A stretch of DNA of 60,659 nucleotides from positions 1-60,659 of the forward strand of contig JAFWXO010000012.1 in the NCBI GenBank assembly GCA_017545865.1, in the 5' to 3' direction. The position numbers and the translations under genes were made by a program. Shown piece after piece: positions 7,203 through 50,470 of this stretch; positions within the stretch are counted from its first letter, which is position 1, and each line of letters starts with the position of its first letter. The notes under the pieces are model-generated. The model made no database searches. It was not told the DNA's origin and saw nothing but the letters and a program-made list of their open reading frames with translations. Source of the DNA: Clostridia bacterium (lineage in GTDB: Bacteria > Bacillota > Clostridia > Christensenellales > Borkfalkiaceae).

Positions 7203-7360
7203 TTTTAGCCTTGTGGCTAAAAGTGATATTAAATAAATCCACAACTTTCCCGAAAGGGAAAATATCACTTTGCGTTAGCAAAATATAACGCCGAAGGCAT
7301 ATCACTTGCCGTTAGGCAAATATAGTTGTGGCGTAGCAATAATCCCTATTGCTAAGCCAC
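7203..7360. repeat. Hairpin array with GTGATAT / ATATCAC linkers
   Basis: A run of short inverted repeats is separated by GTGATAT or its complement ATATCAC: TTTTAGCC-ttgt-GGCTAAAA, TTTCCC-gaaa-GGGAAA, TTTGC-gtta-GCAAA, GCC-gaa-GGC and TTGCC-gtta-GGCAA. The array is bounded by CCACAAC and GTTGTGG and ends in a longer hairpin (GTGGC with GCCAC around TAGCAAT/ATTGCTA). It fills the gap between two convergent genes. See the hairpin-array findings. Confidence 0.75.
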
Positions 7361-9104: not shown

Positions 9105-9128
9105 ATTTTGTTTATTAGCAATTTCGAT

Positions 9129-9249
9129 TAAGACGTTAGAAACAAGCAAGACAAGGCTCGCGAAGTGTTTTGGATGAGATTGACCTTGCTGGTCATCGAA
9201 GTCAAAACACTAAGCAGAAACGCAGTATTGCGCCGTTTATAACGGCTTA
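9129..9249. repeat. Structured dispersed repeat, copy 2
   Basis: The outer stem is TAAGACGTTA (9129-9138) with TAACGGCTTA (9240-9249), with one mismatch. Inside it are GGC-TC-GCAA with TTGCGCC, GTGTTTTG (9165-9172) with CAAAACAC (9203-9210), and TGACC-TTGC-TGGTCA at the apex. The right end overlaps the stop codon of the M24 gene. Confidence 0.8.
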
Positions 9250-11512: not shown

Positions 11513-11622
11513 AAATGTTTGCTAACGCAAACGCTAAATGCAACCTTTGGTTGCGCTAAATTACTTCGTAGCTAAATGTTGCCGTTGGCAACGCTAAATG
11601 CAAAACAGAGTTTTGCGCTATT
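11513..11622. repeat. Hairpin array with GCTAAAT linkers (five units)
   Basis: The units are GTTTGC-taac-GCAAAC, GCAACC-ttt-GGTTGC, TAC-ttc-GTA, GTTGCC-gtt-GGCAAC and GCAAAAC-aga-GTTTTGC, separated by GCTAAAT. The last unit equals the last unit of the array at 28494-28640. It is followed by TGATTTTATTTGCC and TATTACAACT, as there. Confidence 0.85.
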
Positions 11623-12730: not shown

Positions 12731-12825
12731 TGGTTGCATACACAACTGCGTTGTGATTACATACTCGCTGGCGCGAGATTACATACACCTTGCGGTGATT
12801 ACATACCAAAACCCAAGGTTTTGGA
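12731..12825. repeat. Hairpin array with GATTACATAC linkers (four units)
   Basis: The units are ACAAC-tgc-GTTGT, TCGC-tggc-GCGA, ACC-ttgc-GGT and CAAAACC-caa-GGTTTTG, each preceded by CATAC or the full GATTACATAC. It lies between the 11792-12601 gene and the terminator of tRNA-Leu. Confidence 0.75.
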
Positions 12826-28493: not shown

Positions 28494-28640
28494 TTAAATG
28501 TTGCCGTTGGCAACGCTAAATTACTTCGTAGCTAAATGTTTGCTTTGCAAACGCTAAATGTTGCCGTTGGCAACGCTAAATTACTTCGTAGCTAAATGTT
28601 GCTAACGCAACGCTAAATGCAAAACAGAGTTTTGCGCTGT
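28494..28640. repeat. Hairpin array with GCTAAAT linkers (seven units)
   Basis: The units in order are GTTGCC-gtt-GGCAAC, TAC-ttc-GTA, GTTTGC-ttt-GCAAAC, GTTGCC-gtt-GGCAAC, TAC-ttc-GTA, GTTGC-taac-GCAAC and GCAAAAC-aga-GTTTTGC, separated by GCTAAAT. The stems change completely while the linker stays fixed. The block from 28494 to about 28546 is repeated in part from 28555, showing growth by unit duplication. Confidence 0.85.
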
Positions 28641-28700
28641 TGATTGATTTTTTCATTTTAAGCCTATTACAACTATTTTAAGCCGTTAGAACTGAGATTT

Positions 28701-28820
28701 TAAGCCGTTAGTTGCAAGCAAGACAAGGCTCGCAAAGTGTTTTGGATGAAATAGACCTTTTGGTCATTGAAGTCAAAACACGAAGCAGTAACGTAGTATT
28801 GCGCCGCAAATAACGGAATA
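28701..28820. repeat. Structured dispersed repeat, copy 3
   Basis: The outer stem CCGTTA (28705-28710) pairs with TAACGG (28811-28816). GTGTTTTG (28737-28744) pairs with CAAAACAC (28774-28781), and GACC-tttt-GGTC forms the apex. Two extra copies of the left end (TTTTAAGCCGTTA) lie upstream at about 28484 and 28677, next to the hairpin array. Confidence 0.8.
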
Positions 28821-34036: not shown

Positions 34037-34130
34037 AGTTATGAGTTGGACACGCCAACGCTATGAGCGAACTGTTGTTCGCGTTATGAGTAATCTTTGA
34101 TTACGTTATGAGTAAACTATCGTTAACGCT
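34030..34130. repeat. 101-bp direct repeat, left copy: hairpin array with GYTATGA linkers
   Basis: It is identical base for base to 34680-34780. It contains four hairpins separated by GTTATGA or GCTATGA: GTTGG-acacg-CCAAC, GCGAAC-tgtt-GTTCGC, GTAATC-ttt-GATTAC and GTAAAC-tatc-GTTAAC (one mismatch). Both copies begin in the T run of a gene terminator and are followed by TAGGATTGA or TGGATTGA. Confidence 0.95.
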
Positions 34131-34178
34131 TAGGATTGAGTTTTATATAAATTAAATTCTTGCAGATTGTTTTTTCAG

Positions 34179-34686: not shown

Positions 34687-34780
34687 AGTTATGAGTTGGA
34701 CACGCCAACGCTATGAGCGAACTGTTGTTCGCGTTATGAGTAATCTTTGATTACGTTATGAGTAAACTATCGTTAACGCT
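34680..34780. repeat. 101-bp direct repeat, right copy: hairpin array with GYTATGA linkers
   Basis: It is a perfect copy of 34030-34130, exactly 650 bp away, with the two XRE genes between the copies. A GCTAAAT array follows it directly. Confidence 0.95.
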
Positions 34781-34793
34781 ATGGATTGATTTT

Positions 34794-34915
34794 TGAGCTA
34801 AATGTTGCTTACGCAACGCTAAATTACTTCGTAGCTAAATGTTTGCTAAAGCAAACGCTAAATGCAAAACGGTGTTTTGCGCTATGGATTGTTTTCTATA
34901 TAGAAAATATCCATA
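34794..34915. repeat. Hairpin array with GCTAAAT linkers (four units) and closing hairpin
   Basis: The units are GTTGC-ttac-GCAAC, TAC-ttc-GTA, GTTTGC-taaa-GCAAAC and GCAAAAC-ggt-GTTTTGC. A longer palindrome follows: TATGGAT (34883-34889) pairs with ATCCATA (34909-34915) around TTTTCTATATAGAAAA. That hairpin may also end rhaB transcription. Confidence 0.85.
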
Positions 34916-48872: not shown

Positions 48873-49125
48873 CCCTTGAGCAAATGCTCAAGGGACGATT
48901 TAAACCGTGGTACCACCCAAATTTATCCTATACGGACCTTTTGCGTTCAAAAAAACGCTAGTTCTATAACGGGAACACCCGCCGTTGCCTACGCATTTAA
49001 TAAAAAACTTCAGTACGGGGCTTCTAAAATGAATTCGCCAACGATTCGGCTCTGCCTTTCACCAAACGGCAGTTCTCTACGCCCGTTTTAGTTGGGTACT
49101 ACTTCTTAGTCTACGCCTTTAATAT
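48873..49125 (-). promoter_or_regulatory. T-box riboswitch, Phe (UUC) specifier
   Basis: The leader has stem I with AGTA on the 5' side, an AGAGA bulge and a GGTG distal loop on CTGCC/GGCAG. The upper helix is CCAAC/GTTGG and the lower helix CTAAGA/TTTTAG. The specifier loop between them reads GAA-TTC-AT, giving codon UUC at 49031-49033. The T-box GGTGGTACCACGG is at about 48903-48917, with UGGU matching an A discriminator. The terminator CCCTTGAGCA/TGCTCAAGGG is at 48873-48894 and is followed by T5. Confidence 0.88.
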
Positions 49126-50310: not shown

Positions 50311-50462
50311 GTAACCTATGGTTACGCTAAATGTTGCCGTTGGCAACGCTAAATTCGGCTTTGCCGAGTGATATTTACCTTGCGGTAAGTGATATTTTAC
50401 GCAAAGCGTAAAGTGGTATTCGGCGTTGCCGAGTGATATGCTACCCTTGGTAGCGTTGTGGA
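50311..50462. repeat. Mixed hairpin array inside the pyrimidine operon (seven units)
   Basis: The units are GTAACC-tat-GGTTAC, GTTGCC-gtt-GGCAAC, TCGGC-ttt-GCCGA, TTACC-ttgc-GGTAA, TTTACGC-aaa-GCGTAAA, TCGGC-gtt-GCCGA and GCTACC-ctt-GGTAGC. The first two linkers are GCTAAAT and the rest are GTGATAT or GTGGTAT. The array ends in GTTGTGGAT. It must be transcribed with pyrE and pyrB unless a promoter intervenes, and I see none. Confidence 0.85.
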
Positions 50463-50470
50463 TGTTTTCT

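Follow-up and report, generated by a model that had tools for sequence, protein, structure and literature searches.

Hairpin arrays in a Clostridia genome as probable gene-less copies of a small PF05635-carrying element

The arrays of short hairpins found in a 60,659-nucleotide stretch of DNA from a Clostridia bacterium (the window, i.e. that whole stretch) are probably dispersed, non-autonomous copies, gene-less and partly reshuffled, of the hairpin region of a small mobile element with a PF05635 gene, PF05635 being the family of the "23S rRNA intervening sequence protein". In its complete form, read in other families and in relatives of the bacterium, the element is ~0.6 kb long and consists of a double hairpin array placed directly 5' of the PF05635 gene. 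This occurrence of the arrays as 5' leaders was not part of an earlier note on the same DNA. We take as established the build of the element, its association with PF05635, its dispersal, the differences between species at the same site and the near-identity of copies across families.

The array at 28494-28640 had been described in the earlier note as seven hairpins joined by a fixed GCTAAAT linker, and this description was confirmed: GCTAAAT lies between every pair of hairpins and GTTAAAT precedes the first one. The stems are GTTGCC/GGCAAC, TAC/GTA, GTTTGC/GCAAAC, GTTGC/GCAAC and GCAAAAC/GTTTTGC, and two units occur twice. The arrays at 11513-11622 and 34794-34880 share this linker and the last unit, as had been stated. 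Arrays which the note did not contain have GTGATAT/GTGGTAT, GCTATGA/GTTATGA or ATTACATA linkers, and two linker types are fused in a single array at 50311-50454 (Table 1). The array with ATTACATA linkers is similar in build to the others and is, on that ground, a candidate member of the same class only. The GCTAAAT array at 11513-11622 is separated by ~20 bp from the start codon of an oppositely oriented PTE-family gene, and the mosaic array occupies the gap between a pyrB-like gene and a phosphoribosyltransferase gene. In the segment 34006-34932, a small ORF of 73 aa is located between the two GTTATGA arrays, with a terminator-like hairpin before each of them.

Table 1. Hairpin arrays located in the window.
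Feature	Position	Strand	Description
GCTAAAT array	28494..28640	+	7 hairpins at 28500-28635; ends GCTGTTGAT
GCTAAAT array	11513..11622	+	5 hairpins at 11517-11616; last unit as in 28494-28640
GCTAAAT array	34794..34890	+	4 hairpins at 34804-34880; last unit as in 28494-28640; ends GCTATGGAT
Mosaic array	50311..50463	+	7 hairpins, GCTAAAT linkers then GTGATAT/GTGGTAT linkers; ends GTTGTGGAT
GTGATAT/GTTATAT array (GTGGTAT also listed)	7246..7328	-	4 hairpins; Rfam Gut-1 match
GCTATGA/GTTATGA array, copy 1	34045..34144 (copied segment 34030..34144)	+	directly 3' of a terminator-like hairpin
GCTATGA/GTTATGA array, copy 2	34695..34794 (copied segment 34680..34794)	+	97% alike to copy 1 over 115 nt
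ATTACATA-linker hairpin array	12741..12824		adjoins tRNA-Leu

An array finder requiring at least three hairpins with similar linkers detected 20 arrays in 291,994 bases of the genome under study (the window and 20 further stretches), three of which score low and look like chance, and 0 in one first-order Markov control. The 23-mer GCTAAATTACTTCGTAGCTAAAT of the 28494-28640 array occurs 11 times in the genome vs 0 in the reversed control, confirming that linker and units recur there. The bare heptamer GCTAAAT, however, is not enriched in the window (22 occurrences vs 17.8 expected; 17 of 100 shuffles reach 22). The proposed recurrence of the linkers beyond chance holds for the combination of linker and hairpins rather than for the heptamer itself. 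Among gaps of at least 60 bp in the same 291,994 bases, as delimited by simple ORF calls, an array is present in 7 of 16 convergent, 4 of 51 codirectional and 0 of 20 divergent ones (Fisher p 4e-4).

With the covariance model of the Rfam family Gut-1 (RF01706; cut-off 50), a match of 53.9 bits was obtained at 7257-7328 on the minus strand. A second match, at 50324-50400 in the mosaic array, has 50.0 bits in a scan of 118 genomes of the class and is absent from the Gut-1 match list of the window alone; the array at 28494-28640 itself is absent among the Gut-1 matches listed. Since two arrays of the window are at or over the cut-off, the repeat, which had been put forward as a possibly undescribed system, is already described in part, as an orphan "noncoding RNA". 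The consensus of the model, three hairpins joined by GUGAAAU, has the same linker-hairpin build as the arrays. Gut-1 was found in 26 of the 118 class genomes at an E-value of 0.001 or better, with 15 genomes over the cut-off, and the richest genomes contain 29, 24, 19, 15, 12, 11 and 10 matches; the one with 19 is the genome under study, in which 7 matches are at or over the cut-off. These copy numbers indicate that Gut-1 is a dispersed repeat. In the 14 control genomes a single match, in E. coli and below the cut-off, counts against specificity. In PMC2864571 Gut-1 is entered among likely noncoding RNAs, with human gut as its only source, and a search of open papers revealed no link between PF05635 or Gut-1 and such hairpin arrays. 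A scan of 84,980 species genomes for three GCTAAAT linkers gave at least 118 stretches and at least 80 loci. Visual inspection of the 80 listed loci showed 42 to be hairpin arrays and the rest to be plain tandem repeats or chance; the records of these 42 are titled Clostridia, Ruminococcus, Oscillospiraceae, Ruminococcaceae, Clostridiales or Bacillota and are mostly from gut or rumen.

In the complete element, as read in other families, the array is often double and runs from a leading hairpin or terminator through a forward half and a centre to a reverse half; in many cases the centre carries the complement of the first stem again. In only 36 of 91 arrays, which counts against the element reading, is the last forward hairpin followed by the complement of the first arm; swapped arms gave a mean of 6.0 and a maximum of 12 in 300 swaps. 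A strict three-way change of first stem, partner and centre is above chance over the arrays but fails in the close copy L544, and is for this reason not used as a basis here. At 14 of 60 loci scanned, the array is immediately preceded by the 3' end of a tRNA or tmRNA (hand comparison), and several rumen arrays start after the T-run of a terminator. The motif GGCATCTAAACCATTCGG caps some double arrays on their outer side and elsewhere stands by itself between ordinary genes (L200, L201, L214 and L223-L242); with up to 2 mismatches it was found in 10 of 60 class genomes, the reversed control giving 2 hits. A reading as cassette arrays was rejected, as the GGCATCTAAACCATTCGG clusters adjoin ordinary genes where tested (six proteins checked).

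PF05635 matches were obtained in 41 of the 118 class genomes, i.e. in 20 of the 26 Gut-1-positive vs 21 of the 92 Gut-1-negative ones (Fisher p 7e-7), and in 0 of the 14 control genomes. The 6 Gut-1-positive genomes out of 26 that are without PF05635 count against the element reading. At least 14 of the 88 PF05635 matches are at most 0.7 kb from a listed Gut-1 match (hand comparison). A finder of same-linker clusters detected them at 9 of the 18 PF05635 loci ranked 13-30 of the class list (1.62 clusters per 10 kb), at 6 of 22 loci of relatives (1.34 per 10 kb) and at 6 of 10 loci picked in Gut-1-positive genomes (3.41 per 10 kb), background stretches giving 0.11 and 0.26 per 10 kb. At the 12 top-scoring PF05635 loci of the class list the cluster finder revealed 0 arrays, which again counts against this reading.

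Leaders were parsed at 12 of 22 PF05635 loci given, which had partly been picked for having arrays; the unpicked array rates at PF05635 loci are those of the cluster finder. An array stands before the start codon in 10 of the 12 parsed loci and ends at most ~110 bases from it. Seven of these leaders are fully double, L504 and L524 contain the forward half only and L510 is cut by the contig end; no array was found at L505 and L522. Sequence relatives of known structure for the PF05635 protein are 2rld and 2gsc. In three further loci (L519, L529 and L533), the PF05635 genes are flanked by quite different linkers (ATGAATT/AATTCAT/AATTCAC), and at L076 (6000-6420) two near-identical arrays surround, by eye, the apparent broken start of a PF05635-like frame.

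Within the genus, PF05635 is present in 6 of 8 relatives, and two more loci with array and PF05635 gene were recognised by eye in G006 and G003, behind an apparent tRNA-Asn. No PF05635 match was obtained in the genome under study (94.85% complete), in G004 or in G005, though G005 has an array, and this counts against the proposed reading. In the G003 locus (L527), the last 18 nt of the apparent tRNA-Asn are repeated, by eye, on both sides of the unit formed by array and PF05635 gene; the outer 18-nt copy has one change, and the arrangement is attachment-site-like.

The unit of array and PF05635 gene (about 560-600 bp) appears to have spread between families, a conclusion well supported by the comparison of G101, G128 and G057, which belong to three families. 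Their units are 85.7-88.4% identical whereas their carB genes are 56.7-64.2% identical; the flanks do not align and the borders of the unit are sharp. The carB frame has 1352 codons in G101 vs 1060 in G128 and 1061 in G057, so that for G101 the comparison may involve different carB lineages, a reservation that does not touch the G128-G057 pair (62.2%). The exact 23-mer of the 28494-28640 array is present in the leaders of all three units, and whole stems are changed in both arms between the copies.

The content of the arrays also varies at the same site between species of the genus, as had been predicted for an active system, and this was seen at two intergenic sites. The site of the 28494-28640 array, between a 277-aa gene and rpmA, was obtained from 7 of 8 relatives: it holds a GTTATGA array in G003 and two hairpins with a GTGATAT linker in G007, whereas in G001 and G005 the two genes are ~50 bp apart with no array. 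The array finder found none at this site in G004 and G006, which have other sequence, or in G002, which has another gene. In the gap beside pyrB, three different arrays are present in the genome under study, G003 and G005; the pyrB-side genes adjoin in six relatives by match coordinates, and the junction was read in five of them, G002 excepted. No array was seen in G003 and G005 in the PTE gap, the site of the 11513-11622 array. These comparisons are between species of one genus, and no movement as such was seen.

The pairing of the units was analysed on segments between two linkers, in arrays where another unit is a perfect hairpin; the pairing and loop scripts took all 80 loci of the GCTAAAT scan and kept only the units beside a perfect hairpin. 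From 615 linker-bounded units, 413 distinct ones were obtained, 406 of which have at least 60% Watson-Crick pairs and 284 of which are perfect, in agreement with the earlier observation that stems differ while both arms change together. In the 291,994 bases of the genome under study, all 28 distinct units are mostly paired and 26 are perfect. After exclusion of the 7 distinct units below 60%, the 2236 pair cells read on the linker (Gut-1) strand consist of 2079 Watson-Crick, 17 G-U, 37 A-C and 103 other combinations, and G-U amounts to 37 when the units are read on the complement strand. In 83 distinct tRNAs from the same loci, 1635 Watson-Crick and 121 G-U pairs were counted among 1756 bracketed pairs, a comparison in which A-C is unmeasured because ARAGORN brackets standard pairs only. 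On the linker strand A-C exceeds G-U (binomial p 0.009), whereas an RNA fold there would give clearly more G-U than A-C. The loops are biased as well: on the linker strand, 113 of 204 triloops are TNC, i.e. GNA on the complement, vs 2 GNA, and 84 of 152 tetraloops are GNNA on the complement, including 41 GNRA. C-G-closed hairpins outside the arrays (n = 204, same 291,994 bases) have no loop bias, with 17 TN..C vs 18 GN..A, and in 23 distinct units a tandem mismatch reads G-A/A-G on the complement. C-G-closed GNA loops are exceptionally stable as DNA. The rarity of G-U and the loop bias favour arrays acting as folded DNA on the complement strand rather than as RNA, both the strand and the choice of DNA being read from statistics only; the processed RNA suggested in the earlier note is thereby disfavoured.

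The manner of movement and any role of the PF05635 protein can be inferred as follows. The four-helix-bundle protein would recognise a string of short perfect hairpins whose linkers and loops are conserved and whose stems can change in both arms. The form recognised would probably be DNA, either extruded or single-stranded and folded, and its strand the one that reads ATTTAGC/ATATCAC. With the help of the protein, copies would come to lie in the gaps that follow gene ends, terminators and tRNAs, and recombination between arrays would let the copies lose or exchange units. Such a role agrees with the earlier proposal of a mobility function for the IVS gene (PMC4990558) and with the resemblance of the protein to Avd (PMC10053308). 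In the genome under study, which is without PF05635, the arrays would be relics or would depend on a lost or missing helper.

Other origins have been weighed against these data. Structured RNAs, as Gut-1 has been described, might serve as leader control of PF05635 or as small RNAs with the fold kept, the dispersed copies acting on other transcripts. The position of the arrays before PF05635 start codons, the joint change of the hairpin arms and the publication of Gut-1 as a probable noncoding RNA in its entry in PMC2864571 are compatible with such a function, which we nevertheless consider unlikely: G-U pairs are rarer on either strand than in tRNAs, sister species have other arrays or none at a given site, arrays are most frequent where neighbouring genes converge, and the loop bias changes strand between the two halves of one element, so that one transcript could not read both in the favoured sense. 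More doubtful still is a BIME/REP-like repeat for which other host functions (an IS200-type transposase, repair or gyrase) provide movement or maintenance, PF05635 being a frequent passenger of the same sites. Mosaic arrays lying in gaps between genes, with the orientation preference given above, would suit such a repeat, and only a few hundred bases separate one array (L209, i.e. G139:C102) from a Y1_Tnp match with two stops. Y1_Tnp is, however, absent from the genome under study and not associated with Gut-1 (16 of 26 positives vs 76 of 118 genomes overall), the stems are not conserved, and different families share the array together with the PF05635 gene, as a single sharp-bordered unit. 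Inert local repeats, produced by slippage and template switching at inverted repeats, would account for perfect stems, short units and units duplicated within an array (28500-28635); they are highly improbable in view of linkers and a leader position that recur across several families, of near-identical units between families and of linkers kept while stems change.

Several movers or carriers were rejected. IS200/RAYT is absent in the genome under study and without association in the 118 genomes, and the reverse transcriptase PF00078 has a match in just one of the 9 genomes that represent the genus, and that one is not the genome under study. Viral scans gave 92 stretches for GTGAAAT (80 taken as loci) and 60 loci for GCTAAAT, and 8 loci were flagged by script; L383 is a plain tandem repeat, and L317, L350, L358, L371, L381, L387 and L440 look like hairpin arrays. 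With seven array-like loci among the viral loci scanned, phages are not the main carrier.

The preferred reading, gene-less copies of a PF05635-carrying element, can be set beside known systems. With the Gut-1 RNA the arrays share the three-hairpin, GUGAAAU-linker build of the model, but here this build is one part of a larger double array that is multi-copy and PF05635-linked, with signals that favour the opposite strand. REP/BIME and REPIN sequences are mosaics of palindromic units with constant connecting pieces in intergenic gaps. The arrays have the same mosaic build but their stems are not conserved (413 distinct units), and the Y1 transposase of REP/BIME with RAYT gave 0 matches in the genome under study. 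In integron attC sites the fold, and not the stem sequence, is kept; the arrays are alike in this, but no gene cassettes were noticed between them. Unlike CRISPR, they have 7-nt linkers and short self-complementary units, and no long unique spacers, so the earlier separation from CRISPR and from REP elements with fixed stems is supported. The intervening sequence (IVS) of 23S rRNA with an S23p/IVP gene is also a small element with inverted-repeat ends and a protein of the same family, the function of which is given as unknown in the passage of PMC4990558 on it, where it is said to have once been proposed as needed for mobility. The loci read here, however, are strings of hairpins not inside 23S rRNA, and gene-less copies abound. 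The arrays of the genome under study lie between protein genes or beside tRNAs and not in a 23S rRNA helix, and an S23p/IVP gene accompanies the complete elements of relatives and other families but is absent from this genome. PF05635 resembles Avd, according to a section of PMC10053308; with diversity-generating retroelements an Avd-like protein is shared, but not the reverse transcriptase.

Taken further, the data could define a new minimal class of mobile element, a possible rather than a probable reading which we advance tentatively. A string of perfect DNA hairpins and a single Avd-like four-helix-bundle protein, without transposase, integrase or reverse transcriptase of their own, would spread between families and seed gene-less arrays in Clostridia; the Gut-1 "RNA" would correspond to its cis-acting part, with the model built on the less likely strand, and the 23S rRNA IVS would be relatives. 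If true, the orphan Rfam family Gut-1, known for over a decade, would get a home, PF05635 proteins, sporadic in 23S rRNA and kin to Avd, would gain a natural nucleic-acid partner, DNA could be moved via a folded hairpin string without a known recombinase, and the hairpin repeats of gut and rumen Clostridia genomes would be explained. Some hairpin repeats lie at contig ends and may break assemblies. The pair of PF05635 protein and array is small enough for direct testing.

Two other elements were observed in the window. A dispersed repeat of 117 nt is present at 810-926, 9128-9244 and 28700-28816, with inverted ends TTTAAGNCGTTAG ... ATAACGGNTTAAA; it has many copies in the genus, its stems vary among copies and it is often located 3' of hairpin arrays. 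A T-box leader (Rfam RF00230) lies at 48888-49122 on the minus strand.
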